DNA of 64,000 bases from Romanomermis culicivorax (Eukaryota > Nematoda > Enoplea > Mermithida > Mermithidae). Below, piece by piece: positions 14,550 to 39,526 of this stretch. Location: contig CAWUHX010000087.1 in the NCBI GenBank assembly GCA_963922205.1, forward strand, positions 186,001 through 250,000. Direction: 5' to 3'. The notes below the pieces were generated by a model. That model saw only the letters and a program-made list of their open reading frames with translations. It was not told where the DNA came from and did no database searches. The position numbers and the translations under genes were made by a program. How positions within the stretch are numbered: the first letter of the stretch is position 1; each line of letters begins with the position of its first letter.

Positions 14550-15025
14550 AGGTGGGCTCAGGTGCACGTGTTCAGCTTCCGGCGTCGGTGCGCAGGCGGT
14601 TGGACGCGGCGAAAAGTGGCGAAAAGAAATGATAAATTTGCATAGGTTATTTCTGCCACTGTTTCGCGTTTTTGCTGTCTTTTTGTCAGTGTTAAAAAAG
14701 ATTAGTTTTTATGGAGCGACGCCGCCATCGCCTACTTATAATTATTTTGTTTATTATTTGTTTTTGGCGTCGCCACTCGTCACCCAATACACATTGAACC
14801 CGTAAGTGTATTGTTTTGTGAGCGTAGGGGAAGGAGTCTATAAGAATAGGAGTGGAGACTTGGGTAGGAACTCCTGAGGTACGAGCCAAGGTGTTCTGCC
14901 TGAGGTTTAGTGAAAGTTCTGGTGTATATCTGGTGAAACGTCTGGGAGAGTTTGGTGTTTGTTGTTGTTGTTGTTAGCCTGTGGTTAGAACTGTTGCTTA
15001 ATTGTGACCCCACAGTTGCCTAACA
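14545..15025 (+). repeat. 5' LTR of E1 (481 bp)
   Basis: It starts TGTTGAGG and ends CCTAACA, two bases before the PBS-like site. Homologues in reverse orientation are the solo LTR at 56880-57383 and the fragment at 45490-45585, both ending in the same CCTAACA word, which fixes the boundary. A GTAAGT donor-like site lies at about 14802, and a GTT triplet run near 14960. Confidence 0.8.
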
Positions 15026-15133
15026 AGTGGTGGACTCTTAACGCCTCTCACGACGGATAACCGGAGAACCACCAGAAAAATAACTAAACCTCCTGGGTTT
15101 TATTTGCAGTCACATACCGGAAAAGTGAAGAAG
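15026..15133 (+). promoter_or_regulatory. E1 primer-binding site and leader with 3' splice site before gag
   Basis: Two bases after the LTR comes TGGTGGACTCTTAACG, a TGG-initial PBS candidate. The start AAGTGGTGG is shared with E2 (34106 downward) and with the E4 leader (26196 downward). Further on, CCTCCTGGGTTTTATTTGCAG (ending 15109) is a strong 3' splice site 24 bases before the gag ATG. E2 has the matching CCTCCAGGTTTCTACAG. Confidence 0.6.
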
Positions 15134-18100
15134 ATGAGTATTCCGGTAGGAAAAATGTTGAGGACTCCTCCTAGGTCACATGAACCTAGTGTTTCGAATC
15201 TCGACTCTGCTGAAGAACACGCAGCGGTAGAAAAGGTTCAAGCACAGGCGCCTGAGACTGAAGGAAGGAGAGAGAGTGGAATTGCCGAAATGGCAAGAGT
15301 TGAAGAAGAGTTGAGGAGAAGTGGTTTTGAGATGGCTAGGAGAGCCGAGATTGAAACTACTGTAAGTGGTAGTGTCAGAGGTCAGCAGACCTTTGAGAAG
15401 GAGAGACCGACGTCGCCCTCGAAGTTGGTCCATCCGATGGCCGAAACGCTGGAGGAGATTAGACGGAAATCGAAACCGGCGTGGAGGTCAAACATGGTGG
15501 ACATGAACTACGACGAATATTACGAGGACACGCCGGCCGATTTATACGACGACAAATATTCGAGGCGATACGACCCCGAAATTACGAATTGGAGTCGACG
15601 AGAGGATCCGAGGGATCGAGTCGATCCCAAGGACGTACGAATTAACGCGCTGGAGAAGAAGGTCGAGTTATTGATCAAAGTAATCGAAAGCGCGCAGGTC
15701 AAGGAAAAGGAGTCGAAGGATGATCAACGGAGGAAGATAGGTGAGTCTTCTTACCTTGAGAATAGAGTTGAGAGAGTTAGTGAACCTAAGAGAGAGGTTC
15801 ATTCAGAAGTTTATGTCAGGTCTCAAGAGGACAGAGACAAATATTTGGGCAGAGATAGAGGTTGGACTGAGGAGCCGCAGAGTTCGAGGAATGCTGAACA
15901 AGCACAATCGAATGCCTACGGTTACTCAGAGAATAGGAGGTCGAGGGAAAGGAAAGTGACTATTTGCGACGAATCGTCCCAGGGAGAGGATAGGTTTTCT
16001 CGTCCTACTCCCTGGAGAGATACCGCAAACAGAGCTGACCTTAGCCCTGAAAGGAGGAGAAAGAGGAAGTCAAAGAGTCGAAAGAGATCTCACAGATCTA
16101 GAGCTAGAAGTAGACATTACTCAGATAGTGATAATAGCAGTTCATCTACTTCGAACTCTAGCTCAAGTGTTGAAGTTGATGTGAGAGATGTGGTAAAGGC
16201 CTTGAAACATAGACCTTTGCATGATAGTATAAAGCCAACGGAGGCTTTGAAATTTTTTACTGATCTGGAAAGTGAGTTTCTGGAGAACACGGCTGATAAA
16301 GTGAAAAAAGAGTGTTTGAGAAGGTTGTCTCAGATTACGGCGAGGAGGATAGCGAGAACATCCTCAAAATATACAGAAGCGCGGAGAAATATTTTAAAGT
16401 ATCTCGCGCCGACTTATGATTTGACGATGCTCAAAAGAGAGTTGTTTAATATGAAACAGGAAGAAGGCGAGTCAGCCTTGGAGTTTTTAAAAAGATTGAG
16501 TAATCATGTGGATCTGGTCTATGCAGATCAGAGTGATCAAGTAAGGCAAGATAATATTATTAATGCCTTCATTTATAAGAGTAGTCCGTTGTATCAGACG
16601 GAGTTGCAGGATGTATTGCCATCGATGAAAACTTGGCAAGACCTTGCATACGCCGTAACACAGATTGATAAGAAATATAAGAATGTGTTTACTACTTTTG
16701 GAGCCAAAGATAAACCGATTGTAGTGAATCAAGTTGTAGCGGAGGAGATGTGCCCGGAAATTGCTTTTGTCGGGAATGCTCCGTATGGAAGTACTAAAAA
16801 GTATAACCAGACGAAGTCAAGACCACAAAATCAGTTGCAAAAGGCAGTGGAAGAGGAGAGAAGTGAGGAGAATGCGGAAGAGATGATACCTGGTCCGTCG
16901 CCTCGTGATGTCAAAAAGTCTAACGAGGAGCAGGCCAAGGAGTCTTTTCTAGCTATTCTCTCAAAGGAGTGGCTACAATTGGTTCAGAAAGTAGACAAAT
17001 TACAAGTTACTCAGAGTGAAGCCTTAAAAGAGTTGACTACTGTGAAGGCTGCGTCTGCTGAAAAGCAGAAGCAGTTGAAGCAGCAGAGACCCTATTGCAT
17101 TTATCATAAGAATAATACGCATGCTACGGAAGAGTGTAAGACATTAGCCTACCGGCGTCAGCAACAGCAACGCGGTGGATTTAACCGTGGCATGTCTAAT
17201 CAATATTATGGTGGTGATAGGAATGCTTCATATAGAGGAAGTTTTAGAGGTAGAGGTGGACCTCAATTTGGATTTAGAGGAAGAGGAAGAGGTGCCTATT
17301 ATGTAGGATTCCCCGAAGAAGATCAAATGTACGGGTATGACCCAGAATTTGAGAGATACAGGGAATTCTGCAGACTTAGGGAGCAAGGCATCCAGTTGCA
17401 GAGACAGCCTCAGTTGATGTTACCTGCACCAACTAGTCAACCTGCTATTCAGGGTAGTACCGTCCAGGATCAGTCTGGATCATTTGTTTCGAACCAGTCA
17501 CAACCTAGTTTGCATAACGTAATGGTGACAAGCCGTACGGATGTGGATGATGAAAGCGAAAAGAGTAGAAACAAATCTTCTAGTTTGGTTCTCGGAAGTA
17601 TTATTCACCTGGATAAGGTGACACCTCTAGAGAAAGTGAAAGAGAGAGATTTGGCTCATGTGAAATATGGAAGAAAAGCAACGGACGTAGAGAGAAGGTT
17701 GTTGGAAAATTATCCGAAAACGGTTCCGTTCTATATAAATGTGGTTATTAAAGAAACGGCTACCAGAGCTTTAATTGATACAGGAGCTCAGTGTACGGTC
17801 ATGTCTGCTAAGCTCCTGAAAAGGGCATTAGACGTTGATTATACAGTGTACCCTCGTATCCTTAAAGTGACTGTAGCTGATGGAAAAGTTGTGCATGCCT
17901 ATGGGTATGTACCAGTTTGTATGAAGACTGAATTCGGAAGTTTTCCAGTCAATGCTATAGTGTTGCCAGATGCAGGTGAGGACCTGATCTTGGGCACAGA
18001 TTTTTTAGCACACCCAGATTTAGGTGTGGTGATTGATTTCAAAAGGAATGCCATGACGATACAAGGCATTGAGAGAAAGATTGACGTAGTTCAAGTTCCT

Positions 18101-18697
18101 TCTGTAACTACTGTGCAAACGGTAATGGAAGAAGTAACTAAAGTCAGTGTGGCGTCGACTGATTGCATAAATCAAATTGTTTATCCAAAAGTTTGTCTAC
18201 TAAAGACAACTGTTGCAATTGTTGCATGTAGTAAAACCTACATTCCATATGGAACAGATGTTTTGATGAAGGCAAAACTTTGGGATCAACATGGAGATGC
18301 CACGTTGAACGGAATTATTGTCGAATCTAAAGATTCTGAAAGGAAGTTCAGAATGGAGAAAGCGGTTGTAGACGGATCACAAGAAGAGTTTGTAGTACTA
18401 ATCTCCAATACCACAGGTTCTGGATGTCGGTTTGAGAGAGATCAAATCATTGGCTATACAGAATCTATGCTTATTGAAGATGATGATACATACAAAAAGG
18501 TGAAAGAAATGAAGAAGATAAAGGAGGAAGAGGAATATCAGACCTGCATGGTAAAGGAAGGAATGCCTGCATTATCAAAAGCTGATTCTGTAGAGTTCTA
18601 TACTTCACTATGCAAGATGATATCAAAGGCAAAAATTTCGGAAGAGAAGAAAAGCGGAAGCTATAGAGTCTTTGTTGAAGTACAGAGATGTCTTTAG
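15134..18697 (+). CDS. E1 Gag-protease polyprotein
   Basis: I choose ATG 15134 (MSIPVGKML) because the frame to its left has no earlier ATG and contains the splice acceptor. The protein is about 1187 residues. The N-terminal third is charged, with a basic SR-like tract ([13 protein letters not shown]). A helical capsid-like region follows (about 16190-16700; [13 protein letters not shown]). The zinc knuckle at about 17092-17135 has the spacing C-x2-H-x4-H-x4-C, with His in place of the usual second Cys. Next is an RGG/RGRG-rich stretch, then a retroviral-type aspartic protease with LIDTGAQ (Asp at residue 882) and LGTDFL. Gag packages the RNA; the protease would cleave the polyprotein. In E2 this frame runs on into RT without a break; here it ends early at a frame change near 18670. 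Confidence 0.9.
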
Positions 18698-20714
18698 TTT
18701 GCCTGGTGATCCGGCTACTACAACCCCAGCTCTGACGTGTAAGATAGATACAGGAGATGCAAGACCTGTAGCAAAGAGATATTACAGAGCTTCAATTAAT
18801 AGTCGGCCAGGAGTAAGGCGACACATAAAGGAGATGTTGGACCAAGGAGTGATCGAGCCCTCGAAGTCACCGTGGGCTGCACCCTTGTTTCTAGTTGGAA
18901 AGAAAGATGGAACTACGAGACCCGTAGTGGATTTTAGAGGTATAAACGAAGTGACCAAGGATGATAAATATCCCATCCCGAGAATGGATGACTATTTAGA
19001 TTGCCTTGGAAGAGCGAAGTTTTATATGACTCTAGATTTGAAGTCGGGATATTGGCAGGTCCCGATGGAGGAGGAGAGCAAGGAGAAAACGGCTTATATA
19101 TGCCAAGAGGGCTTATTTCAGTTTAAGGTGATGCCGTTTGGGTTGAAGAATGCACCTGCTGAATTCCAAAGGATGATGGAGAGAATCCTTGGGGATTTGG
19201 TATGGAAAATTTGCCTAGTGTACATAGATGATATTATCATCTTCTCGAATACGTTCGAGGAACACTTAGAGAATTTGAACTTGGTGCTAGAAGCGTTGAG
19301 GAAGGCGAAGTTGACTCTTAAGCCAGAGAAATGTGAATTTCTTCCCGAGAAGGTGCACTTTTTAGGACACATCTTGGATGCGAATGGAATTTCTCCGGAT
19401 CCTAAGAAGGTCAAGGCCATAACGGAATTTCCATTCCCGGATTCTGTTAAGAAAATGCAAAGATTTCTAGGTATGCTACAATGGTGTAAGAAATTTATAC
19501 CAGACCTAGCAGCACTAGCTGAACCTTTGTACAAATTAACAGGTAAGAAGGGAACATGGAATGTGACGGAGTTACATTACACAACTTTTGAGAAGCTCAA
19601 AGTAGCATTGACCTCAGTACCTTTCTTAAGACATCCAATTCTAGATGGATCTGCACGATTCATTCTTCAAACGGATGCCAGTGGAATTGCATTGGGAGCA
19701 GTGTTATGTCAAGAGACTGACTCGGAACGTTGGGTAGTTGCCTACAATAGTCGGATATTGCGGGCAGAAGAAAGGAAATGGTGCGCCACCGAAAGGGAAT
19801 GCTTAGCTGTGGTTTACGGCCTTAAAATTTATAAACATTATCTTTTGGGCCAAAAGGTCAGGATTCAAACTGACCACAAACCACTATTATCAATGAGGGT
19901 GAATACACAGACTAACGACAAACTCAAGAGGTGGTACGCATTCATTTGCCAGTTTAATCACAAGTTGGAGTACGTGCCTGGCAGACAAAATGCCATGGCA
20001 GATTTCCTCTCTAGGAAGGAGGAACCGGATGAGCAGAAAGAGAAGTTGCCACCAAAATGGGAACTTATCTTTCAGAAAGAAGAAGTGAAATCTCTTACTG
20101 AAGACGAAGTCCTTAACCAAAACCACAAAGTTTTAGTGAAACAACTTCGGGAACTCAGAGGAGATGAAGTGGATGAGGCTGTAGGAGTCTTCACTCCGGT
20201 GAAGATGGCCACAGCTTCAGTGGCTTCAAAGTATAGTGTTAGTGATGAAACTCAACTTAATATTTCTCCAGAATTTGATAATTATCGAACGCCTGAGAAA
20301 TATGAAATTGAGGCGGTAGTCACTAGACAAATGTCAAAAAACTTGCAGCAGGAGGAAAAAGGACATCCTCCTGGGCAAGCAAAACCTAAAGAAGAGGTGA
20401 AGAGAATTTTTGAACCGAAGGAGAAGGAGTTTGAAGAAGCCCCAGAGATTGAAGATGATAGACCGAAAGGGCTTATCTCAAACGCCTTGATGTCAAAATT
20501 GCAAGGAAAGGATAAAGATCTAAAAGTGATCTTCGAGAAACTAGGTGCTAGTAGTGGCACCAAGTCTCAAAGTAGCTTTTATATCGATCAAGGGATACTA
20601 TATAGAGAGACTTTTGGCGAGGCAGAGGATCAAGTTGTTGTCCCCCTCTGTTCTCAAAAAAGTTGTCCTGCATCAGTATCATGGAGCAGTGATGATGACG
20701 CATCAAGGGTTTAA
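18672..20714 (+). pseudogene. E1 reverse transcriptase-RNase H frame
   Basis: The frame is +1 relative to gag and overlaps it by 26 bases. RT motifs appear in order: LFLVGKKDG, the LDLKSGYWQ block, FGLKNAP, and the catalytic YIDD at residues 184-187 (19221-19232). RNase H follows, with QTDASG and the later ATERE and TDHKPL motifs, then a spacer rich in charged residues. E2 has no frame change at the gag-pol border, so the shift here is more likely a point indel than programmed frameshifting. The frame ends at 20714 after another change in an A6 run near 20655, where homology to E2 moves to a different frame. In the intact family this part copies RNA to DNA and removes the RNA strand. Confidence 0.88.
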
Positions 20715-21788
20715 GAGAACCCTTGCTATTATTAAAAAGCGGTTCTGGTGGCCGAGCATCGAGAAGGATGTTCGGAGCTGGATCAGTTTTTGTCCGATAT
20801 GTCAAATTGCGACTCCAGGAAAGGCTACGATTCCGCCATTGAATCCAATCATTCCTAGAGGACCATTTGACATAGTTTCGGTAGATATTGTGGGAATATC
20901 TCCCATGAGCGAGAAAAGACCGTATGTGATAGTATTCCCAAGATTACTTTACAAAATGGGTGGAAGCAGAAATGATCCCGGATCAATCTGCTGTAACCAT
21001 TGTGGACAGTTTTCTTCGGAATATTGTGTTCAGGACATGGAACCCCGGTAAAATTGTTGAGTGATAATGGTTCATGCTTCACAGCTGATTTGATGACGTC
21101 AGTCTGTAAATTGTTGGAGTGTCAAAAGATTTTCACAACTGCCTACCATCCACAAGGAAATGGAATGGTTGAAAGGTTTAACCAAACCTTGATCAAGCAG
21201 TTGCGAAAGGTTGCTATAGAGGATTCAGATAAGTGGGACAGATATTTGCAATCTGTCGTTTTTGCATATAATGCCACACCTCATACCTCAACAAAATGTT
21301 CTCCATTTGCCTTATTGAGAGGTCATGAGGCAAATTTTGGCATTAGTATTGGAGTTGCTAGAAACATAGTTCTGCCAATGAACTATGAGGCTTATAAGCA
21401 TATACTAACCGAAAGCTTAGTAGAAACTTATGAGACCATTGCTGAGAATATCAGGAAGGCTGCGGAGAGCAGTAAAAAGTTTTTCGACCGTAAAGCAAAA
21501 GCTCATGATTATTCCGTCAATGATTGGGTTTTGCTGAAAGTCGATAAACAGAAAAAACTGGGTCTTCCGTGGCAAGGACCGTATGTTGTTACTGATAATA
21601 GTAGATTATCAGAGAATGTGCTTGAAATCGCTCACTGGAGAGAGCCGCTGAAAAAGCAGGTGGTATCCGTGAGCAGGTTAAAGCACTTTCGCTACGAGAC
21701 CGGCAGATGGCTGCAGTCTAACGACGTGTCATCTAAGGACACGCAGTTTACTGTAGATTCAAAAATTAGTAATTATAAACTGCCGTAG
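20640..21788 (+). pseudogene. E1 integrase, split over two frames
   Basis: The HHCC zinc-binding N-terminus (HQYHGAVMMTHQGF ... CPICQ) and the first catalytic Asp (VSVDIVG) lie in the frame open to 21051. Homology to E2 shifts frame near 20938 and again near 21035. The second Asp (LLSDNG), the catalytic Glu (VERFNQ) and the GPY/F module (GLPWQGPYVV) lie in the frame from 21000 to 21788. All catalytic residues are still present, so the damage is recent or represents sequencing error at short runs. Integrase would insert the DNA copy into the host genome. No envelope frame follows. Confidence 0.85.
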
Positions 21789-21985
21789 CGCGTAGCGCTG
21801 TGTTTTTTTGTGTGTGTGTGCGTATGAATACCCCCCCATATTTTTTTCGTCCCCCAATTATGTATTTAAGTACAAATTGTATTTANNNNNNNNNNNNNNN
21901 NNNNNNNNNNNNNNNNNNNNNNNNNNNNNNNNNNNNNNNNNNNNNNNNNNNNNNNNNNNNNNNNNNNNNNNNNNNNNNNNNNNNN
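21789..21985. other. E1 3' tail and assembly gap of 100 N
   Basis: After the integrase stop there are about 97 bases with a GT-rich run, C7 and T7 tracts, then N from 21886 to 21985. A run of exactly 100 N is the usual placeholder for a gap of unknown size. The missing 3' LTR of E1 and the end of the minus-strand exonuclease-like frame may both lie inside it. Confidence 0.85.
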
Positions 21986-24900
21986 TTTATCAGCTTGCGA
22001 CCTGTCATCGCCTGGTGCCTTCCTCTTAACACCCATCTGGTTTAACCTTTGCGAGCCCATAAAAATATACTGATTAAAGGCTGCAATGTAGACATCGTCT
22101 ACGCGGTTTCCCTGGGCCTCAACGACTAGTTGTCTGTTCGCAAACGAACACGCCTGGGCATACCACCTACCAATTGCCGTTGGCATGATCGGAGCGAAGT
22201 CCAACTGAAGAAAAATCATTAGGGTCACGTACCTAATGGCCGTAAAGACGTCTGAGGCATCGTAGTCCTGAAGCCATCTGGGGATGAGAATTAAAATTAT
22301 CCATTCCCAGATCTCCTCAGGGATGCGCTCTCCGTCGAACATAAATCCGCCTTGCATTTCGAATTGCTGGCGGTAATTTTCGTGAATCTCGGCCATGGCA
22401 TCATTGACCATTCTGTAAATTATCGGCCGTTCTTGCCGATCAAAGGCGAAGTAATTGGCGACCTCTGGATTTTCAAATGAGATCGGCCCAATTAGGCGCC
22501 TTTGTTCCCGTTGCCACTCCCAATAATCAATCAGAGTTTCGGCCAATTGACCAGGAGTGACAAACTGCTGTGGTTCCCTTTCGGGTCTAGTAGCTACCAC
22601 ATTCAGCTTGACCTTCTTGATCAATTTCTCCTCCGATTCAAGATCGGGCTTCACCAATACGCTTCCCGCAGGTTTGCTACTTCTTGCGGTATAGCTGGAG
22701 GGCACGGATTTACTTTTGCCAGAATAAGTACTAACCTCTCCGCCGGTTTTCGATACCGTTCGCGTCTGAGTGTACGATGTTGTCGCAGTGGACCCTGTTG
22801 TCCTGTCCGATTTTGTCTGGCCTATGGAGGTCTCCGTTCGCGTCTGACTTTTTGAAGTCTCCGTTCTTGTCTGACTCTTTGAAGTCTCCGATCTCGACTT
22901 TTGGCTCGTCGAATATTGTGGTGTCGTCGTTTCTTCGGCCGTATCGTAGGCGTCGTTTTCGGATCCGGTGGCGGCCGCTCCTTGTTGCTGCTGTCCCTGA
23001 GCTGCAAGTCTGCGTCGCTTGGCCTTACCTATCCTCTTTCTACGCCTTACCTTTTCCTTGGCTAGATGTCGGATAAATTTTTCCGACATCCCTTCAGCTA
23101 ACATCTGCTGAACTTTGTCTGGGGAATAAATTCCAGGAATACCTTCCTCGGCAATTCTTCCCCTCCGCATCAGCTCTGTCGCTGCGATGGCTGAATCTGA
23201 GCTATCGTCGGCTAGTGCCTGCTCCTTCAGCTTTCTCTGGATTGCCCTCTGACGCAGGAATTCCTGCTGCGTCAGCCTTCTTTGTTCTTGAATTTTGGCC
23301 TGTAGGGCCTCTTGCTTCGCTTGACGGTCATGATCCTTAGGATCTTTGGCCTTCACAGGTATCTCCTGGGATGCTTCCTGCATCTTCTCCAGTCTGACAT
23401 CGATCCCTGACATTTTGGTAACTGCTTCGTCAATTTGAGTCTGGATTTTTTCCTCCTCAAGAGCCTGTTTCTGAGTTTTGGCCTCCATCGCATCCTTATT
23501 CTCTGATGTCTGGCCCTCAGATTCGAGGATTTCACCCTCTTCTTCTTCTTCTACATCCTCCTCTGAACTGGACTCAGAGTCTGAATTCCGTATCTTCGGC
23601 AACAGCTGTTTTACTTTAGCTGGCAAAACAGCTGGTGCTGGAGGTACTGATTGCATTATGGTGACTACCTCGGGCTCAGGCTCGGCCGGTTGTTGTACTT
23701 GAGGTACTTGGGTCGGCTGTGCCACCGCTGGTTGGATTGGCGGCGGCACCACGACAACTACTGCAGCTGCCTGCGTAGCAGCAGTGTCCAAAGCTGGTGT
23801 AGCTTTGACCACTGGCGCTAGCGCCTGCGGCTGCGCTTTGACCTGTCCCGTCCCTCCGGCTTGCGCCGTTTGGGAAGTTGAGGGACGATTTAGCGGTACT
23901 TTAGAAATTAACTCACCGGCTGGGGTATATGTAAGTGTATACCCGGGCATTTCCGAAGCGATTGTTCTCTCCCGGAAGCTTTTGCTGACAAACTCCGGTC
24001 TGAGCTCGAGCGGATTTCTCGGTGCGTAGGTAATCGGGTAGTCGGTCGGCGATGCGTCTTCCGTCATGGGATACCGCAGTCCCGGCGTTAAAGTCTCGAA
24101 GCCTACGTAGTAAAAAGTTACATAGAAATAAGGATTTACCTTGTAGGCTCCGTCCTTCAATAACGATTTGTCGTCGCCAATTTGTAGAATCTCCTCGGCT
24201 TCTCGAAATCGTAGCGGGACAAAACCGAACCGATTCTGCCATGCGTATACCCCTTTTTTAGATGGAAAGCGGGGTTCCGACGGCGGTAGCGTCGCTGCTA
24301 ATTCTAAATAGTAAGCCAGGCGGTCGCCTGACTTCCAGGACATTTTCTTTATCATTTCCTGGCCTTCTTTAGTATAACTATTTAGAAAGTTATAATTTAG
24401 CAGAGCGCTAGTTTCATAGTCGCACTCCGCTCTGGAATGAGGCCATGCCAAATGATAGGCCAATGGCATAAATTTGCAGATGACCTCTAACTCCGGAAAG
24501 TTTCGCTCATCCAGCATACCTGAAATTTTTGCCAAGTTTGGCGTGTAAAAATTGGTCTTATAGGCCTGTCTATGGCCCTCGATACCCACTGGGTAGTGGT
24601 TATTAGAGGAAAACACCTCTTGTGGAATGGTATCGGGCTTCCCGGCTTGTTGCCAGTATAGCTTGGCGTTTTCGTACAACGTTAAAGAAATTTTCCCGTC
24701 TAAATCCCAGTAGGCTCCGCCTGACTTGAGATTTTCCAGGATATCTTTTGAAATATTTACCCAGTCTGGTATCTGGACGTCCTGGATTTCGTCGGGATCG
24801 CTATCTGTGGTGTATCCGTCGTCCTTCAGTGGTTTGTTATCTCTTGGAAGTAGTGGGTAGAAACCACTTGGCAACTGAACTCCCTGCGGACGGACTGGAT

Positions 24901-25947
24901 TACACTCCGTGGGCGCGGTATAATAACCTGTGTTATTTCCCTGCATCTGCACCGCCCAACGGTTATACATCTCACACTTCATCATGTGATAGACCATGTT
25001 TGGTTGAACCTGATCGGTTTCCATAACTGGGGTACCTAGCCCCATTTCTCGATTCACATTGCCCGGAATCATTAGATATTGCTGATAAAAATGGAGGGCA
25101 ATGGTGTTGATCTGTTTGGGATCCACCTTGTCATGGTCGAAAATCTGCATTTGCATAAGCAGTTGATCGGCCATGCCATAGTGAATGGCGGCAAACATGA
25201 CCAATAAGGAGTAGTATGCGTCTAGAGCGGCGTATCTGAGCTCTTCCGGCAATATACCCCTTTTGGCAAACCGATCACGGTTCGCTTTTAACGAAAAGTC
25301 ATACTGGTAGGGGCCCACGTCTATCAAATAAAATTCCGTGAACAGTCCCTTTAACCGAAAAGTTTCGGGACATATACCTGTCTGAAAGCATTTCTTCTCC
25401 AGGTTTACTCCTACCATGGTGAGGGCGAAACGGTCTAAGTCAAAGTATCGACCTTTGGTCTTTCTTAGAAATTCCCGTAAGGGGACAGTTTTGTCCCTGT
25501 CCTTATTATCTCGCCCTGCGCCACAAACGTTATAGATACTCACCAGATCTTCTAGCACGGCATATCCGGCGAAGAGCATGTCGGAGTTCAAGAAGTCGTG
25601 GAGGCTGGTCCACTCTTTGATCATCATCGACGTTGTATCAATAACGTAAGTTTGACCGTTCGTTAGCGCGAAGCTGATATATCGGGCAAACTGCTTTCCC
25701 ATTGGATTGTCGACCTCCCTTGTTTTGAACAAGGCGGCGACCTTATCCTGGTTCACTTTTTCAAGGTCGAAACCACAAACTGGTTGTCCTCTGAAGATCG
25801 AAACTTCTCGGATAAAATGGAGTACCTGGCTGACCCTCCCGATGTCTACCATTCGAGGTTCCTTGGGATTGGCCGGCCAGTACCCAAATGTGGCTTTGAA
25901 CCACTGATCCAGTTCGTGGATTCGTACGGCCCGTTTAACGTTATAAT
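21986..25947 (-). CDS. large protein with DEDDy 3'-5' exonuclease domain (E4), C-terminus lost in gap
   Basis: This minus-strand frame is open for over 1280 codons without an intron. The first ATG is at 25852, but the frame stays coding-like up to a splice acceptor (TGTTTAG) ending at 25948, so the true start is probably in an upstream exon; the sequence before the ATG reads [18 protein letters not shown]. Counting from the ATG: Exo I is GFDLE (D29, E31), Exo II is GYAVLED (D102), and Exo III is [11 protein letters not shown] (Y207, D211). This is the complete catalytic set of RNase D / WRN / MUT-7-type exonucleases. A region of about 400 residues of unknown fold follows. Then come a Pro/Ala/Gln-rich linker, an acidic patch ([15 protein letters not shown]), a basic tract ([13 protein letters not shown]), a Ser/Thr-rich repeat stretch (SKSQTRTET) and a hydrophobic helical C-terminal region. 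An intronless frame of this size is unlike the host genes and like the flanking retroelements. The function inside an element is unknown. Confidence 0.8.
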
Positions 25948-26196
25948 CTAAACATAAAGTACTATTAATTTTAGTGTTTTATTCCCCTTTTTTCAGCGCA
26001 TTTTCGGGTCTATACTACACCAGCACCACAACACCAAGCGGGTTAAGTTTCGCAGAAAATTAAGTTTAGTGCAGGTTGTTAGGTGAGCCACTGATATACA
26101 AACATTGAGCTGGTAGGCAACTAACACCTTACCAAATCTTACCCTTGCTACCTCTATATGTTGGGGAGGGTAGACCTGATCCGATTGTCCACCACT
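25948..26196 (-). promoter_or_regulatory. E4 leader with PBS-like site and splice signals
   Basis: On the minus strand, AAGTGGTGGAC (26196-26186) repeats the bases that follow the LTR ends of E1 and E2, so it is a good PBS candidate. GGTAAGAT and GGTAAGGT donor-like words follow, and an acceptor TGTTTAG stands directly before the exonuclease frame. The PBS candidate lies between two arms, TCCGAT and ATCGGA, that could pair. No frame of note occurs in the leader. Confidence 0.45.
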
Positions 26197-26751
26197 TGAT
26201 CGGACACCAATCTCTGACCAGCTGCTTGAGCGACCAACTACGCTCCATTTATGGCGCTGTATTTACAATTTTTATAGCGCTCGAAATTGATAATTTTTAA
26301 TGAATTTTGTATCGAAAAAGTGATATGATTTGATTTGATTTGAAAATAAATAATTTTTGATAAATTTTTGAATGATAAAACTTTAAAACGGGCTGAACCC
26401 AAGGTTCTAGGTTTCCCTTGAATCGTATAGCTCTCGGTGGTATCAGGTATATTTCCAAAATGGAAATTCCCTGCTTGGCTTCGAGCTTCCGTTTCGCAGT
26501 ACTCCCATTTTTCGTTCCCTCTAAGTTCTAACCTCGTCTGCCCTTTGGGGCGCCGAGCTGGTCTTCCAGTGACTTCTGGGCATTACCTGCGGTTTCCAAG
26601 AATATTTGATAAAAATAAGTTCGAAACTTACCGTCGATAAAGAAAAAACGGTTGTCTTGGCGGTGCTGGGCCCTGCCGTATTCAACGTGGCGCTCTGTGT
26701 GCGACCACTCGCGCGTCGGAGCTTGTTGGCGGTTCCGCGCGCCCTTTCCCA
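26197..26751 (-). repeat. probable LTR of E4 (about 555 bp, right-hand boundary tentative)
   Basis: On the minus strand it ends GTCCGATCA two bases before the PBS-like site. A possible start is TGGGAAAGGG at 26751, preceded by the purine tract GAAAAGAAAAGAGA. A TATA-box candidate (GCTATAAAAATTG) lies near 26275, about 75 bases before the LTR end. A second copy that would prove an LTR is not in the window, and the sequence is not similar to the E1, E2 or E3 LTRs. Confidence 0.4.
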
Positions 26752-27173
26752 TCTCTTTTCTTTTCGAAATTTTTGTTTTCGAATAATAAATTGATAAATT
26801 TATTAAAAATTTTGAACGCTGAAAAAGTTTAATTTAGCAGTTCTGCTAATTTCCTTTTTATCGCGGTTCGGGGAATATTTTACTTCTTCCTTCCGATGGA
26901 AGTTTAGAATTCAGATAAGCGGGGCAGCTATAATTTGATTTTGAAAAAATGAAAAATTTGAAAATTAATTTTTTAGAAAAAATGTCAGAAATTTTTTGGG
27001 TTGTCACTTTGGTCTAAAATTCCGAAGAATTTTTCCCAAAGTCTGAAATAAATATGAAAAATTTACAAAATTAATATGAATTATACACAAACGCGATAAA
27101 TATTACAAATTAATACAATTTTAATTAAAATTAGTACTTACACGCGCGAGATATGTACATAAAATAAAAAAAA
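26752..27173. other. AT-rich sequence downstream of E2 pol
   Basis: This is non-coding. It holds AAATTT-rich words, a GC patch around 26865-26930 and the purine/pyrimidine tract at 26755-26765. No copy of the E2 LTR was found here, although the 3' LTR of E2 would be expected. I see no gene. Confidence 0.4.
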
Positions 27174-30100
27174 TCAGCGCGAGATCGCGCATAGATTCGC
27201 CTTGGGCGAATTTTCAAATGATTTCATTTGAATCGGCGCTCCAGTCGTAACTGTTTGTGCCATATTGGAAAATGACGTGTTTTCGTCACGTGGCGCGTCC
27301 TGATTGGCTCGCGCTATTCGCGGCAAGACCCTAGTGGTCTCGTAGCGAAAATGTTTCAACCTGCTGATTGAAACTGTTTGGCGATTTAGCGGGTTGTCCC
27401 AATGTACAATGGTGACAACATTCTCCGCTTCTCGCGAAATGTCCGTAACTATGAACGGACCGGACCATGGTAGTCCTAGTTTTTTCTGCTTATCTACTTT
27501 GAGCAGAACCCAATCTTTTTCTTTAAATCCATTTTGTTTGGACTTTTTATCGAAGTATTTCTTCGATTTTTCGGCAGCACTCTGGATATTTTTGGCAATA
27601 TCCTCGTAAAGGTTGACTAAATGATTTGTCAACACAAATTTGTATGCCTCAGCATTGCTGTCCGGCATCACAATATCGTATGCTTTCGATAAGTTTAACC
27701 CGAAGGTTGCCTCATGACCTCTAAGCAACGAAAATGGGGATTGCCCCGTGGCTGCATGCGGTGTGGCATTATATGCAAACACCACAGCTCTCAAGTATCT
27801 TGGCCAGTTATCTTTTTCCTCGATGGCCACCTTTCTGAGCTGTTTAATGAGTGTCTGATTAAACCTTTCTACCATACCATTTCCTTGTGGGTGGTAGGCA
27901 GTTGTAAAAATTTTTTGACACTCTAATAACTTGCAGATCTCCTTCATTAGATCTGAGGTAAAACAACCTCCTCTATCGCTGAGTAGTCTCCGTGGAGTCC
28001 CGTGCCTAAATACAATAGCTTGTAGAAAAGTATCTACAATGGTGCTAGCTGACTGATCTGGGATCAGTTCAGCTTCAACCCACTTTGTAAAATAGTCTTG
28101 AAAGACTATGACATACGGTCTCTTCTCACTAAGTGGAGAAATACCAACAATATCCACTGATACTATGTCAAAAGGACCTTGTGGAATAATTGGTATCAGT
28201 GGAGGAATTTCCGTGTTTCCCTGATTAGCCATTTGACAAACTGGACAAAACTTGATCCAGTGCCTGACATCCTTTTCAATTCCAGGCCACCAGAACCGTT
28301 TTTTAATCATAGCAAGGGTCCTTTTGAACCCCTGATGAGTCATCATTACGGCACCGTGGTACTGGTGCAAAGTATTGTCCCTAAGGCAGGATGGGACGAC
28401 CACCTGATCATCCGATCCCTGTCCGGCTTCGCGGTATAACACTTCATTTTGGATATAAAATCCACTATGATATTTGGTTGTCCCATTTGGACCCAATCTA
28501 TCAAAATATGGTTGTAATACCTGATCTTTTCTCTGCAAGAGGGCCATGAGATCATCTCTAATTAGCCCTTTTGGTAATTCGTCTTCTTTAGGGTCTGCCA
28601 AAGTAAACTCTTGTTCCTTTTCTGGGTATAACCAGGTTACTCTTTTTTCCTTACCTTTGTCCTGGTTTCCCCTACTTACCTTATCTTTGACCTGATTGCC
28701 GTCAGGCTGGATCTGAGCCTGATTATTCTTGTCCGCTTCTTTCGCCATGCTCCTTGTAGTTACGGCATTTACCAAGTCTGCAGGCGAGTTTGATTCTGGA
28801 TCACCCTCAGAATCTTCTGGATAAATTTGGGTGAATCTCGGACTCATATCAGTCCTCTGATTTTTCTTACCTTTTGGCTCCAGATATAACGGAGTACCGT
28901 CTTCAGGATTCCGATCTGTCAGAATTCTGAATCTCTTTACCAAATTGAGATGTTTTTTCTCAATAAGCTGTGCCTCAAGATCTTTCAGATTCTCGGACTC
29001 TCGTTTATCCCCTGAGAACATGTGTTCCCATTTTGGCGGTATCTTTTCCGCTTGATCGTCTGGTTCATCCATCCTGGACAAAAAGTCTGCCATGGCATTT
29101 TGTTTTCCAGGCACATACTCTAGTTTATGGTTGAACTGAGAGATGAATGAGTACCATCTCTTCAACTTACCATTGGTCATGGCATTAACCTTCATAGATA
29201 ATAAAGGTTTGTGATCAGTTCTTATGATCACTTTATGACCTACTAGGTAGTGCTTGTATAACTTCAAGCCATACACAATTGCCAAGCACTCCCTTTCCGT
29301 GGCTGACCACTTTTTCTCATCCGCTTTTAAAATTCTGCTATTATAAGCAATTACCCAGCGGTCTGAGTTAGTCTCCTGGTAAAGGACTGCTCCTAGTGCC
29401 GTTCCGCTGGCATCTGTCTGAAGGACAAAGTCCGCAGACCTGTCCAAAACCGGATACCTAAGGAATGGCACAGACAATAGTGCTTCTTTCAGGCTCCTAA
29501 AAGCCTGATGGTGAACCTCCGTGACTTCCCAAACACAGTTCTTCCCAGTTAGTTTGTACAACGGTTCAGCGTGTTTAGCCAAACCCGGTATGAACTTTTT
29601 ACACCACTGCAACATACCTAAAAACCTTTGCAGTTTACGTTTAGACTCTGGGAATGGGAAATCATTTATAGCTTTGACCTTTTTCGGATCTGGGGAAACT
29701 CCATCCGAATTTAAGATATGTCCTAAAAAATGAACTCTCTCAGGCAGGAATTCACACTTCTCCGGCTTCAAGGTCAAATGAGCCTTTCTTAGAGCTTGCA
29801 GGACTAGCTCTAGATTAACTAGGTGTTCCTCAAACGTATTTGAGAACACAATAATGTCGTCTATGTAGACTAGACAGATCTTCCACACATATGGATGCAA
29901 AACTCTTTCCATCATGCGCTGGAATTCTGCTGGCGCATTTTTTAGGCCAAAGGGCATGACTTTAAATTGATAAAGCCCTTCTTGGCATATGAAAGCAGTT
30001 TTTTCCTTGCTTTCTTCGTCCATTGGCACTTGCCAATATCCTGATTTGAGATCTAGGGTAGTATAAAATTTGGCTTTACCTAAACAGTCTAGATAGTCAT

Positions 30101-33100
30101 CCATTCTAGGAATGGGATACTTATCATCCTTGGTAACGTCATTTATACCCCTAAAGTCCACTACTGGTCGCTTGGTACCATCCTTTTTACCTACCAGGAA
30201 TAACGGAGCTGCCCAAGGCGACTTTGATGGCTCAATTACACCCTTCTTGAGCATATCTTGCACATGCTCACGAACATGTGGCCGTAAATTAATGGCAATC
30301 CTGTGGTACCTTTTTGCCACAGGTGCTGCATCTCCTGTATTTATTTTACAGGTCAAATAGGGTGTAGTAGTTGGAGGATCATTGGGCAAGCTGAACACGT
30401 CTCTATATTTTGCGAGACATCGTAGAGCCTGTTCCAATTGTTCTGATGGTATGTTGGATTTAGCTAGCATATTGTACAAGGCTTCCTTGAACTCTTTCTC
30501 ATCCACTTGAGTCGAATCAGGTCTAGCCTGGACTGCACAAGTTTGCAGCTTCTCCAAATCCTCAACTATCTTCCCCTTAAGTTGATCTTGGTTATCAGTA
30601 TCACACAACACTGAATTAGTATGGCCAATTATTTGATTTCTTTTCAAATGGCATCCTGATCCTGTGTTGTTGGATACCATAACAACAAAATCATCTTTTG
30701 TACCATCTACTATGGTACTATCAATGTGGAACCTTTCTTCATTGTCTTCAGACTCTATTATGATTCCATTGAGGCGATTTTCGCCTACCTTATCCCAAAG
30801 CTTTGCTCTCAGAAGTATATCAGTACCACTAGGTAAGTAGATGGGATTCACACTCACCACTGGCACCGAAACCTTTAGCAGGCAAATCTTTGGCTGGTAT
30901 TGGTCGGCGGCGCTCATCGTGGATTCCGCGGCGCTCGTGGTCATGACCTCTCCACAATTTGATTGGGGCTGGTCGGGCGTCACGTATATCCGTTGTTGAC
31001 GGTTGTTGAGCGTCATCGTCCTATTCCTGAAATCTATTATGGCTCCTACCTGAGGATGAGCCAAAAAGTCTGTTCCTACAATGACATTTTCACCTGCTTC
31101 GGGAATTACAATTGCTTTAACGGGAAACTGTCCACACAATGTATCCATCCTAAATTGGATATACCCATGGGCTTGGACTGTCTTACTGTTGGCTACAGTG
31201 ACATCTAATATCCTGGGATATTCAGTATAATCTGGGCCCAAAGTTTCTTTCAGAAACTTAGCCGACATGACAGTGCACTGAGCTCCTGTGTCAATTAAAG
31301 CCATTGTCTTACGACCTCCTATAACAACCTCAATGTGGAATGGGGCTGTTCTGGGGTACGTATCCAGCAAATGTTGTTCCTGGGGACTAGCTGGTATGCC
31401 TCTCCTTATTACTTGTACTGATGGTACTACAGGTTGTGGTGCAATTGCATTCATTTGCACAATACTACCTAACACAACATTTGGGCAACTCACTCTCTGG
31501 TTTACTTCACCTAAAGGACTCATCTGTGATTGCCTTGCAACCATAACACTCGAATAATCCTTCTGAGGTGGCTGATTTGTGAATTGACCCTGTTGCAGAG
31601 TCTGAGTGGGACCCATAATCGCCTGAGGAGGCTGAGGATGCTGTAATGCAGCTTGCTGTTGGTATTGCTGCATCTGTTGGAACTGCTTCTGCAGCTCCTT
31701 CTGTTTTTTAAACTCCAGAAATTCATTATAATCTGAATTCTGCTGGTAACTCTCGTGGCTATCCTGATAACCTGAATAGCCTACATTATAAGCACCTCTG
31801 CCTCTGCTATTAAAGTTGGCATTTGGGTAACCTCCTCTACCTCTGTAGTTACCTCGAGCAAAAGTGTTGAAGCCTCCCCTGTTGTAGGTAGGGAAGCTGG
31901 CTCTATCTCTGCTCCTGCGCTCGGACAATGCTCTCAATGTCCTGCAGTCTGCAGTATTATGTGTTATGTTCTTGTGGAACTCACACCATGGCTTAGTCGG
32001 ATCTCGGGAAACTTGACCTCCCTGACTGGTACTAGGTATGGCCACATCAGACCGATTTTCCGTTTGCCTGTTATCAACCTTTTGCTGGAGCTGGTCGAAC
32101 CTTTCGACCAGTTGTACCATCTCTTTTGAGATTTTCAATAGAAGAGATTCCTTCTTACCTTTTTCGGTCTGAGCCCTAGGGGCTTCCCGAACTGGAATCT
32201 CCTCTATCTCAGGAGAATCACTCCTTGACCTTTGGGTTTGGGCCTGTACCTGATTACCTATAGTTTGATATGGTTGCCGAAACCTTTGCCTCTGGCCTTG
32301 TTGATATCCCTCTGACTGGTTCCTAGCAACTACGGCAATTTCAGGATCATGCCCACTAGGCATACCTACTTCATTAATTACTATAGGATCCTGTTGTGTA
32401 CCCTTGGGTCCATATCTCTGGAAGGCATTTTTGTACCTACGTTCAATATCATGAACCTCTACTGCAAGATCATACCAGGTTCTAAAGGTATGCTTTGAAT
32501 TTTTCAGTTCAGACTGAAATGTAGGATCACTCTTGTAAATAAAGGTATCAATAATCAGTCTCTGTTTAGACTGATAGTCTAAATCACCTTTAACTAGTTC
32601 CACTAATATACTGACCCTTTTTAAAAACTCTACGGCCTGTTCATTGGGTCTTTGTTGGATCTCAAACAACTCCCTGGTTAACATTTCCAGGTTGCACTCA
32701 GGTGCAAAGACATTAATAATGGCTCTCCTGGCCTCCCTATAGGTCATGTTGTCTCCTGCAACAGCCTTCGGTCTACCTTTAGAAAGCCTCAGCAGTGCTT
32801 CATACTTAGCTGATTCGGGTGTATCCCTACGGAATTCCCCTTCAAGTGCTGTTAAAAAGCTAAGCACCTGCTGATTTACCATACCCTCATCTAAAAGTTT
32901 GGGTAACACACCTTTAACGATATTCCTGACTACAATCTCCTGTGCCAAATTATTTGATGGCACTTCCCTCTGATCATAAGCTGCTGTTAATACTGGATCA
33001 AGATCAGAGTTCAGGGATTGCAGCATAACCCTATTTGGATCTCGTTGAGGCGGTACACCTCCTTGATATGATGGCATATTGTCTTTATCAAACCTGTAAT

Positions 33101-33179
33101 CCCTATATGGGAAACATGCCAATTGATCTGGTCTAAGGGTATTTGGATCAACTATATTTCCTCTACCATCATAGACCAC
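27174..33179 (-). CDS. E2 Gag-Pol polyprotein, single frame
   Basis: The frame has 2001 codons, with coordinates counted from 33179. A capsid-like helical region (about residues 60-240) precedes a zinc knuckle near residue 400 of the C-x2-H-x4-H-x4-C type. RGRG-rich and Q-rich stretches follow, then aspartic protease DTG at 630, RT with YIDD at 1105-1108, RNase H with QTDASG, and integrase HHCC near 1605-1650. The catalytic triad is Asp about 1676, Asp about 1733 and Glu about 1770, followed by a GPY/F module. No pol frameshift exists, so Gag and Pol are made as one chain. The first codon of this open frame is not ATG; in-frame sequence continues upstream through the TGA at 33257-33255 to the ATG at 34010. 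All catalytic motifs are intact. Such an element makes virus-like particles in the cytoplasm and inserts DNA copies in the nucleus. Confidence 0.92.
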   Translation of the reverse strand: MVYDGRGNIVDPNTLRPDQLACFPYRDYRFDKDNMPSYQGGVPPQRDPNRVMLQSLNSDLDPVLTAAYDQREVPSNNLAQEIVVRNIVKGVLPKLLDEGMVNQQVLSFLTALEGEFRRDTPESAKYEALLRLSKGRPKAVAGDNMTYREARRAIINVFAPECNLEMLTRELFEIQQRPNEQAVEFLKRVSILVELVKGDLDYQSKQRLIIDTFIYKSDPTFQSELKNSKHTFRTWYDLAVEVHDIERRYKNAFQRYGPKGTQQDPIVINEVGMPSGHDPEIAVVARNQSEGYQQGQRQRFRQPYQTIGNQVQAQTQRSRSDSPEIEEIPVREAPRAQTEKGKKESLLLKISKEMVQLVERFDQLQQKVDNRQTENRSDVAIPSTSQGGQVSRDPTKPWCEFHKNITHNTADCRTLRALSERRSRDRASFPTYNRGGFNTFARGNYRGRGGYPNANFNSRGRGAYNVGYSGYQDSHESYQQNSDYNEFLEFKKQKELQKQFQQMQQYQQQAALQHPQPPQAIMGPTQTLQQGQFTNQPPQKDYSSVMVARQSQMSPLGEVNQRVSCPNVVLGSIVQMNAIAPQPVVPSVQVIRRGIPASPQEQHLLDTYPRTAPFHIEVVIGGRKTMALIDTGAQCTVMSAKFLKETLGPDYTEYPRILDVTVANSKTVQAHGYIQFRMDTLCGQFPVKAIVIPEAGENVIVGTDFLAHPQVGAIIDFRNRTMTLNNRQQRIYVTPDQPQSNCGEVMTTSAAESTMSAADQYQPKICLLKVSVPVVSVNPIYLPSGTDILLRAKLWDKVGENRLNGIIIESEDNEERFHIDSTIVDGTKDDFVVMVSNNTGSGCHLKRNQIIGHTNSVLCDTDNQDQLKGKIVEDLEKLQTCAVQARPDSTQVDEKEFKEALYNMLAKSNIPSEQLEQALRCLAKYRDVFSLPNDPPTTTPYLTCKINTGDAAPVAKRYHRIAINLRPHVREHVQDMLKKGVIEPSKSPWAAPLFLVGKKDGTKRPVVDFRGINDVTKDDKYPIPRMDDYLDCLGKAKFYTTLDLKSGYWQVPMDEESKEKTAFICQEGLYQFKVMPFGLKNAPAEFQRMMERVLHPYVWKICLVYIDDIIVFSNTFEEHLVNLELVLQALRKAHLTLKPEKCEFLPERVHFLGHILNSDGVSPDPKKVKAINDFPFPESKRKLQRFLGMLQWCKKFIPGLAKHAEPLYKLTGKNCVWEVTEVHHQAFRSLKEALLSVPFLRYPVLDRSADFVLQTDASGTALGAVLYQETNSDRWVIAYNSRILKADEKKWSATERECLAIVYGLKLYKHYLVGHKVIIRTDHKPLLSMKVNAMTNGKLKRWYSFISQFNHKLEYVPGKQNAMADFLSRMDEPDDQAEKIPPKWEHMFSGDKRESENLKDLEAQLIEKKHLNLVKRFRILTDRNPEDGTPLYLEPKGKKNQRTDMSPRFTQIYPEDSEGDPESNSPADLVNAVTTRSMAKEADKNNQAQIQPDGNQVKDKVSRGNQDKGKEKRVTWLYPEKEQEFTLADPKEDELPKGLIRDDLMALLQRKDQVLQPYFDRLGPNGTTKYHSGFYIQNEVLYREAGQGSDDQVVVPSCLRDNTLHQYHGAVMMTHQGFKRTLAMIKKRFWWPGIEKDVRHWIKFCPVCQMANQGNTEIPPLIPIIPQGPFDIVSVDIVGISPLSEKRPYVIVFQDYFTKWVEAELIPDQSASTIVDTFLQAIVFRHGTPRRLLSDRGGCFTSDLMKEICKLLECQKIFTTAYHPQGNGMVERFNQTLIKQLRKVAIEEKDNWPRYLRAVVFAYNATPHAATGQSPFSLLRGHEATFGLNLSKAYDIVMPDSNAEAYKFVLTNHLVNLYEDIAKNIQSAAEKSKKYFDKKSKQNGFKEKDWVLLKVDKQKKLGLPWSGPFIVTDISREAENVVTIVHWDNPLNRQTVSISRLKHFRYETTRVLPRIARANQDAPRDENTSFSNMAQTVTTGAPIQMKSFENSPKANLCAISR

Positions 33180-33254
33180 TCTAGTTAAAGTTGGATGCTG
33201 CGGAGCTATCTGACTTTGATTCCTGAAGTCTGCCGATTGCTCAGCTCCTTCGAA

Positions 33255-34010
33255 TCAAAGATCTCTAGCTGGACCTCTCCAACTTTTGGGCTCAAAGTTA
33301 AGCCTTTGCCCTTCATCAATATCAGGCCTATTACTAGGCCCTGCGCCTGCATTTATTTCAGCAGCGAGACGGTTGTCTCTTTCTGCACCCCTATTACATG
33401 GTCTAACCTGTCTATCCGGCTCCTGTCGGCGCCTGTCGGCTTCCCTTTTGTTGTCCTCTGTGGCGGCATTCGCGATTATGTCGAACAAGGCTTCGACGGT
33501 CCCTTTCAACTCGCGTAGCTGCGTCGCCAACTCTTGATTGGACATCTCGGGAGCTCTTTCCTGCGGTTGGAATCGCTCTTGTTCCTGGGGAATCCTCTCT
33601 AACCCTTGATCGATTTCGGGGTCCCTTTCTTCAAAGTTTGGTCGAATTTCGGGCGTAACGACGTCCCTTTTTGGTCCTGCTAATTCGACCTTTGGCGGCG
33701 GTGACCTTTTGAAATTTGGCTGCGGCGGTCCATCGGCGTCTGGGTTCGGATTCGCCGGGCCTGCCTCCTGCGGATCGATGGCAATCGCTGGTGGTCGGTC
33801 AATTGGTACGCCTGCATCTTGAGGCGTAAAATGCATTGCATTTTGTTGCAATGGTTGAACCCTCGCGGGAGTTTGATCTGGGATCACTGGGTCCGGAGCA
33901 GCCTGCCGTTGCTGATCTCCGTCTCCCAAATTGACTAGATTCCCAGCACTCGCCACTCTGGGTGGTGATCTACGTAAAGTATTACCTCTCGGTATCCTTT
34001 CGTTAGGCAT
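33255..34010 (-). CDS. E2 Gag N-terminal frame, closed by one in-frame TGA
   Basis: ATG at 34010 (MPNERIPRG) lies 20 bases after a strong splice acceptor (TTTCTACAG). The 251 codons encode a Pro/Arg/Gln-rich, mostly disordered protein with a coiled-coil-like patch ([20 protein letters not shown]), as in E1 Gag. The TGA is followed by 25 open codons that join the long polyprotein frame in the same phase. A CGA-to-TGA transition would explain the stop, and so would stop-codon readthrough. As sequenced, the TGA would block Gag-Pol unless read through. Confidence 0.8.
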
Positions 34011-34106
34011 TTTAAATCCTGCTAACTTTCTGTAGAAACCTGGAGGATATTCTTTTCTCCTAGTCTGACTACGAAGTTCCGTGGTGAGGAGTTAAAAGCC
34101 ACCACT
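34011..34106 (-). promoter_or_regulatory. E2 primer-binding site and leader
   Basis: TGGTGGCTTTTAACTCC (34104 downward) follows the LTR end AACA plus AG, aligned with E1. The leader shares CCTC/CACGACGG-like and CCTCC-GG-TTT words with E1 and ends in the acceptor TTTCTACAG. A good donor, CAAGTAAGTTTTG, sits inside the LTR near 34371. Confidence 0.55.
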
Positions 34107-34710
34107 TGTTGTGCAGGTCTTTCCTTAAGAGGCGTAAGAAAAGATTGGGTCTGAACTGACCTGTTAGAACTGATACCTTGGCTAAGCCTCGGTGATCTGT
34201 GCAACAGTCCGTTTGTCCCCAGACCTACAACAACAAAGATAAACTTTGTTCTAAATACGGGGGCCTTACCAAAGACCTCCGCAGTCTCCTAGATGAGACA
34301 AGGAATCCCCTCAGGGATAAACTTACTTGGGTATAACCCGAAAGGGGTTTCCCAAAACTTACTTGATGTAAGCTGGCGCCTGGGCCTCTGGCCCTCCGCC
34401 TTCGTCGATGCGAACTATCTAAACAAATAAACAAATATATTAAGCAATAAATCCGGCGAAATATGTAAAACGAATGTGGGTACACCACAGTAGAATACTC
34501 ATAAACAAAAGACGTTGCTGGGAAAATTGTATTTAGGGACGCCAGCAAATAACACCAAAAATATAATAAAAACGGTAATAAGTGAAGAATGATTTCACTT
34601 TCATTTTTCGTCTTTCTTTGGCGCTCCATTCTATGCAAATGTCTGCGCCGCTGGTCGTCCCTTTTCGTCGATTTGCATGTCGATTTCCCCACACGAAATT
34701 GGCATCAACA
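34107..34710 (-). repeat. 5' LTR of E2 (about 604 bp)
   Basis: On the minus strand it starts TGTTGATGCC and ends GCACAACA next to the PBS-like site. The start was chosen because it matches the TGTTGA start of the E1 LTR. No second copy is present in the window, so the outer end is less sure than the inner end. Confidence 0.55.
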
Positions 34711-35012
34711 GGGTGCCCAACATACGCCTTGTTGATATTTTCAACTGTGAGTACATATAATATAGTAGAAAATGTTATAAAAATCCAAAAGTTCCAAAGT
34801 TTCTGATCTGTTGATATACGAATTCTAATTTTTATGCGGAATAAATGCCGCGAAGATACTCAGCATGAAAAGCTACACAGTATACCTGATTACAGCTAAT
34901 TTCAAACCAATTATAGTCAAGGTCGAACTTCTCATTGCTTACCAATCGGCCGAATTTGTGGAGACATCGTTGAAATTTGTCAAGATAGGAAATATGAATG
35001 CAATATAGTATC
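34711..35012. other. AT-rich spacer without recognisable features
   Basis: No exon, splice pair or repeat unit was recognised. The composition is ordinary AT-rich sequence unlike the PATC-like introns left of 14.4 kb. Confidence 0.5.
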
Positions 35013-39495: not shown

Positions 39496-39513
39496 ATGAG
39501 GACGTTCAACTCC

Positions 39514-39526
39514 GGAAGGAGGGAAA
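39514..39526 (+). promoter_or_regulatory. E3 polypurine tract
   Basis: GGAAGGAGGGAAA stands immediately 5' of the 3' LTR, the place where plus-strand DNA synthesis starts in LTR elements. Confidence 0.85.

Follow-up and report, generated by a model that had tools for sequence, protein, structure and literature searches.

A giant, probably spliced, exonuclease-like third open reading frame in an LTR retrotransposon family of the nematode Romanomermis culicivorax

Introduction

The long terminal repeat (LTR) retrotransposons Juno and Vesta of bdelloid rotifers carry DEDDy exonucleases in a third open reading frame (ORF3), related to those of Penelope-like elements, and pol includes a dUTPase in three of the four lineages. 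The benefit of the extra ORFs is described as unclear, and their within-genome evolution as without significant departure from neutrality (PMC5408684). A DnaQ-like exonuclease is counted among the well-known accessory domains of LTR elements (PMC6338049), and the main text of PMC5348765, though cited beside the exonuclease domain, contains neither "exonuclease" nor "DnaQ". The present work deals with a window of 64,000 nucleotides from the mermithid nematode Romanomermis culicivorax (contig CAWUHX010000087.1, G000:C87:186001-250000 in an assembly of 359 Mb), which holds a left-hand element (E1), a right-hand LTR element (E3) and a giant frame (E4), here assigned to E3 as its ORF3. A sequence-only reading of the window had described E4 as an intronless DEDDy exonuclease frame between two LTR elements and had held that known LTR elements carry no such domain; that last statement is contradicted by Juno and Vesta as well as by PMC6338049.

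Like Juno and Vesta, E3 is an LTR retrotransposon with what is very probably a DEDDy-type exonuclease in its third ORF and, as in that type, ORF3 is placed between pol and the 3′ LTR, as seen in the C10 copy. Compared by description only, the E3 ORF3 differs in its size of about 1549 residues if spliced, its extra conserved parts and its tail rich in arginine and glycine (RG-rich). No match to a dUTPase was found in ORF2 of E3 at E 0.1 or better. Terminons, the giant rotifer Penelope-like elements, are also retroelements with an accessory DEDDy exonuclease, but they are Penelope-like with telomeric repeats and not LTR elements (PMC6431247). Some Dada elements, of Laccaria bicolor and Ectocarpus siliculosus, are likewise mobile and have a DEDDy-type domain, although these are DNA transposons with the domain inside the transposase (PMC3706591). 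The MUT-7, RNase D and Rrp6 enzymes (PF01612) resemble E4 in their D-E-D-Y-D arrangement and in having a YAALDA-type motif, whereas E4 is element-borne and multi-copy, and its window copy has no significant match to the family.

Results

Architecture and Copies of the Element

E4 proved to be a real frame of the minus strand, open from the ATG at 25852 for 1288 codons until the gap at 21886-21985; upstream of this ATG, it is open as far as 25978. The features of E3 are, in the order of the element:

34107..34722, minus strand: 5′ LTR of E3 (TGTT...AACA), matching both LTRs of the C10 copy
34087..34104, minus strand: likely primer-binding site (PBS) of E3, TGGTGG..., 2 bases past the 5′ LTR and common with the left element
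33255..34010, minus strand: ORF1 of E3, 251 aa, without a match in Pfam
27174..33254, minus strand: ORF2 of E3, with protease, reverse transcriptase, RNase H and integrase (Pfam)
26632..26752, minus strand: probable exon 1 of ORF3, ATG at 26752, donor G/GTAAGT; third-position variation, homologous exon in the E1 family
25948..26631, minus strand: inferred intron of ORF3, holding a PBS-like 12-mer; donor and acceptor AG invariant among the compared copies
21986..25947, minus strand: main exon of ORF3, truncated at the gap; in the C10 copy it runs for 1477 codons from ATG 25852
25126..25948, minus strand: DEDDy 3′-5′ exonuclease-like part of ORF3, about 274 residues of the E4 frame; it begins with the final base of the intron
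21886..21985, no strand: assembly gap of 100 N; judging by other copies, the missing sequence comprises the end of ORF3 with the 3′ LTR of E3, and the 3′ part of E1

The four domains of ORF2 follow one another in the order given, each above the Pfam cut-offs. E4 does not lie between two LTR elements but forms the 3′ part of E3, and its treatment as a separate unit is rejected, since the frame is continuous with the pol of E3 and paired LTRs enclose both. In the C10 copy, about 14.67 kb long, the order is LTR, ORF1, gag/pol, exon 1, intron, ORF3, LTR, and the copy aligns with the window in two pieces (L032:630-8001 with 34723-27351 at 97.9%, and L003:1-5367 with 27351-21986 at 98.9%). Both the retroelement origin of the frame and the paired LTRs around another copy, which the sequence-only reading had proposed to look for, were thus found in C10. 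Since the final 189 codons of ORF3 and the 3′ LTR after them are lost in the gap, E3 shows only its 5′ LTR in the window and no LTR pair is detectable there.

The search of the assembly with the E4 protein gave at least 36 full-length matches at 99-100% identity. Only the best candidates were scored, so that 36 is a minimum that includes too few of the degraded copies. No stop was found inside ORF3 in any of the 36, and the frame measures 1519-1527 aa in 35 of them, the remaining one being the window copy, cut by the gap. Thirty copies were taken as loci for comparison. Against L003, whose upstream end falls in the E3 pol frame, 29 loci were compared; in 28 the match begins no more than 31 bases from that end, and in the exception, L027, it begins at 1177.

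The LTR of the C10 copy is 615 bp long (TGTT...AACA) with ATAA on both flanks, and its terminal repeats are identical across the 185 and 433 bp compared. The C116 and C357 copies have LTR pairs with 1 mismatch each in the compared stretches and duplications of CTGG and CAAT, respectively. All three copies examined therefore combine a 4-bp target duplication with an LTR pair differing by 0 or 1 mismatch, and they are recent insertions.

Two further observations concern the copies. At L027:787-1400, about 390 LTR bases are joined to the ORF3 intron near the PBS-like site and the adjoining end of pol is missing; judging by this junction, L027 is a deletion or recombination product. The LTRs of C116 and C10 are only about 90% identical, though the compared ORF3-side stretch reaches 98.8% (L056 and L057 against L032), as if subfamilies had exchanged LTRs.

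Selection and Variation Among Copies

Among 29 aligned rows, ORF3 has 36, 24 and 230 polymorphic sites at the first, second and third codon positions, with 246 synonymous (S) and 55 nonsynonymous (N) changes, a ratio against expectation of 0.081. All 29 rows are free of stops, and ORF3 aligns without gaps. A count for the end of pol in the comparison among copies (S 1, N 12) was set aside, the frame there being uncertain. Since ranking had been by similarity to the query protein, a criterion biased towards silent changes, regions outside the query were also checked. The 189-codon tail of ORF3, outside the query, varies at 5 first, 5 second and 30 third codon positions (S 30, N 10, ratio 0.12). 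ORF3 is under selection, third positions taking most of the changes inside the query and beyond it.

Between the window and C10, the counts were S 7 and N 6 for ORF1 (0.32), S 99 and N 31 for ORF2 (0.11), and S 37 and N 4 for ORF3 (0.04). Variation among copies was 0.153 at fourfold sites of ORF3, 0.154 in the leader ahead of exon 1, 0.067 in the intron (25948-26631) and 0.046 in the stretch from ORF3 to the 3′ LTR (L003:5935-6679). Since they vary less than fourfold sites, the last two regions look constrained. Such low-variation non-coding stretches hint at cis-acting or RNA elements.

Exon 1, the Intron and the PBS-like 12-mer

Contrary to its description as intronless, ORF3 probably has a short coding exon and an intron ahead of the main exon. 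The acceptor TTTAG ends at 25948 and the split codon preserves the frame, while the compared E3 copies all agree in the donor octamer and the acceptor AG. Polymorphic sites by codon position were 1, 0 and 5 in exon 1 (E3 copies), and 0, 0 and 4 in the stretch from the acceptor to ATG 25852. In addition, a counterpart of exon 1 exists in the E1 family (43% over 28 aa, E 6e-6), with a GT donor behind it, and both this family and a third one have the acceptor in the corresponding position. Because of this codon-position variation, the invariant splice sites and the conservation across families, the coding exon and its intron are likely real. If spliced, the ORF3 product would be about 1549 aa (by arithmetic, 40 + 1 + 31 + 1477 codons), and reverse transcription would have to use the unspliced RNA. 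Separately, an acceptor-like CTTTTTCAG at 26819-26830 (minus strand), about 70 bases ahead of the ORF3 ATG, is a possible cis- or trans-splice acceptor.

The PBS-like 12-mer CAAGTGGTGGAC, which had been taken as a site upstream of E4 shared with both LTR elements, is exact at 26187-26198 (minus strand) and at 15024-15035 of the left element (plus strand). Beside the LTR of the right element, at 34097-34108 (minus strand), it occurs with 2 mismatches, so that the sharing is exact for the left element only. With up to 2 mismatches, 5 matches were counted vs. 2.3 expected by shuffling. The exact minus-strand 12-mer sits inside the inferred ORF3 intron; the likely primer site of E3 itself follows the 5′ LTR, near 34104. 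Neither TGGTGG nor AAGTGGT occurs in the ORF3 intron of the E1 family, and Rfam and transfer RNA scans of the window gave no matches.

Related ORF3 Families in the Same Genome

ORF3 homologues form two further families in this genome besides that of E3. One of them is represented in the window by the left element:

15134..21788, plus strand: gag-pol part of E1, a sibling family whose other copies have a homologous ORF3; the pol frame is interrupted in the window

At least 40 matches to the E1 family were listed, at 97-100% identity. From a sample of 15 loci, leaving out the window copy, all 14 examined have an ORF3 start 51-54% identical to that of E4. In L049, of this family, ORF3 is a frame of 1445 codons, 31-35% identical to E4 overall and 50% in the exonuclease part, with the RG-rich tail also present. 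Members L050 and L051 of the third family share 46-47% identity with E4 in the exonuclease part. All 4 aligned rows, which cover the three families, keep the catalytic D, E, D, Y and D unchanged.

Outside this genome, no homologues were found with residues 1-660 of E4 or with a two-row alignment, in a search that reaches only relatives sharing short exact words; the database names nr and uniref as two of its sources.

Assignment of the Exonuclease Part

The residues D29, E31, D102, Y207 and D211 were all found at the places claimed for them in the E4 translation, and the DEDDy assignment is supported by the PF01612 matches of the relatives, the catalytic columns and the profile comparison. The profile search that had been proposed, run here with PF01612, was clearer for the relatives, at about 1e-4, than for the window copy. 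L049 reached at best 21.5 bits (E 2.2e-4; E 0.031 for the whole frame) and L050 22.7 bits (E 9.6e-5), both below the curated cut-off of 23.6 bits; the L050 locus passed that cut-off, with 24 bits, only together with its neighbours in the frame. In profile-profile comparison, the three ORF3 families matched a second DEDDy group together with E. coli RNase D at E 1.7e-5 and a probability of 78%. None of 150 column shuffles reached its score of 42.3, the highest being 29.2. E4 alone gave E 0.34 against E. coli RNase D and E 0.093 against that mixed profile. A PDB profile search had as its sole match 7jw2, "Exonuclease mut-7 homolog", at E 1.6 and at the YAALDA motif, and with two families nothing at E 1 or better was found.

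Several results weigh against this assignment. The window copy matches PF01612 only with E 0.1 and 12.8 bits, in one 220-residue slice, its other pieces giving no match, and E4 is not among the at least 116 PF01612 matches listed for its own genome. PDB sequence searches with E4 returned no significant match and no exonuclease, the profile-profile match spans Exo I and II and not Exo III, and a one-sequence structure model was uninformative on an RNase-H-like fold (predicted local distance difference test, pLDDT, 36). Taken with them, the DEDDy assignment is still very probable, with exonuclease activity as a prediction. The NCBIfam search of E4 gave no match, and a search with E. coli RNase D had close enteric RNase D alone in its best 120, so it was uninformative for E4. 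After the exonuclease part, no known domain above cut-off was found in Pfam or NCBIfam; a weak PF10081 match there had E 1 and 0.032.

A Probable Second Exonuclease Lineage

Of the at least 116 PF01612 matches listed in the genome, 95 exceed the cut-off and 12 belong to frames of 608-610 aa; host exons may be included in the 116. One frame of the 608-aa type, L053, matches PF01612 at E 1.1e-10 and is located downstream of the L054 frame. In L054, the matches to a CCHC knuckle and to RNase H exceed the cut-offs, and that to an integrase zinc domain falls just short. No match to a reverse transcriptase or an integrase core was found in the L054 piece at E 0.1. In addition, L054:1-145 recurs as L055:1207-1351 at 99.3%, in the manner of an LTR. 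Because of these domains and this LTR-like repeat, the locus L053-L055 looks like another LTR element with a different exonuclease ORF, as judged from one genomic context (L052, L053, L054 and L055; C344 and C69).

Other Elements in the Window

An LTR pair on the plus strand (35753-36629 and 39527-40403, 96.6% identical) encloses a zinc-knuckle ORF (37428-38714) and an ORF at 38731-39495, with no long pol frame; 35753-40403 is a non-autonomous-looking LTR element. A direct repeat was also found at 56599-56879 and 57672-57952 (89%). Between its copies, 56940-57367 on the minus strand matches the 5′ LTR region of the left element at 77%, on the opposite strand.

Discussion

By its placement, copy number and substitution pattern, E4 is element-borne, multi-copy and under selection. 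We read it as the ORF3 of a recently active LTR retrotransposon of Ty3/gypsy type, spliced and encoding an auxiliary exonuclease for the element's own ribonucleoprotein (RNP), and give this whole reading a probability of about 0.7. The protein would be made from a spliced subgenomic RNA and would consist of an N-terminal DEDDy 3′-5′ exonuclease, a conserved middle, a long low-complexity stretch, a conserved C-terminal part and the RG-rich tail. This tail should bind nucleic acid, giving association with the RNP. Less certainly, ORF3 may serve the element's own RNP by trimming 3′ ends of RNA or complementary DNA in replication. A membrane-spanning envelope protein is disfavoured because no 19-residue hydropathy window reaches 1.6, the highest values in two ORF3s being 1.50 and 1.58.

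ORF3 might instead counter small-RNA silencing, as the sequence-only reading had speculated, by trimming or destroying guide RNAs or templates, or by competing with a MUT-7-like host enzyme. The retention of ORF3 by selection in young copies, the exonuclease ORF of the second LTR lineage and the mut-7 homolog as sole PDB profile match would agree with such a role, but that match is not significant and rests on one motif, and PMC5408684 considers self-limiting variants improbable and does not decide on the role. We consider the anti-silencing function unlikely. More doubtful still is the extended version in which an LTR clade evolved a giant spliced exonuclease-RG protein that is needed for spread and trims host silencing RNAs, the second lineage having taken up a different exonuclease ORF to the same end. 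The fold could also have been kept for nucleic-acid binding or structure without catalysis, in the manner of EXD1 or Maelstrom, which are known inactive RNA-binding DEDD relatives (PMC5408684). The sequence of E4 is indeed far from that of active RNase D, yet all five catalytic residues are retained across families just 46-50% identical to E4, and this possibility appears very improbable.

Two explanations that take E4 out of E3 have practically no weight. In favour of an independent non-autonomous LTR element, primed at a site of its own, one could point to the exact 12-mer common with the left element and to L027, with its LTR fused to the intron near the 12-mer and no adjoining pol end; nevertheless, nearly all loci compared with L003 continue into pol, the C10 copy has no LTR between pol and ORF3, and the site was not found in the intron of the E1 family. 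A host gene lying among elements by chance would account for the exon-intron structure and the acceptor-like CTTTTTCAG ahead of exon 1, but hardly for at least 36 near-identical copies with LTRs outside in those examined. Likewise, a host MUT-7 or RNase D gene, expected in low copy and without LTRs, was refuted by the copy number and the LTR-bounded copies.

With E4 placed as the ORF3 of E3, what is new here is its size, its probable splicing, its retention across three families and an apparent second LTR lineage with another exonuclease ORF. No nematode report, and no ORF3 so large and spliced, was found in the open-licence literature, subscription papers not being covered. Unlike in the rotifer report (PMC5408684), many young copies here vary mostly at third positions, and the gene is common to three families. 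Because of this third-position variation, the three sharing families and the second exonuclease lineage, what a retroelement gains from an exonuclease becomes directly testable.

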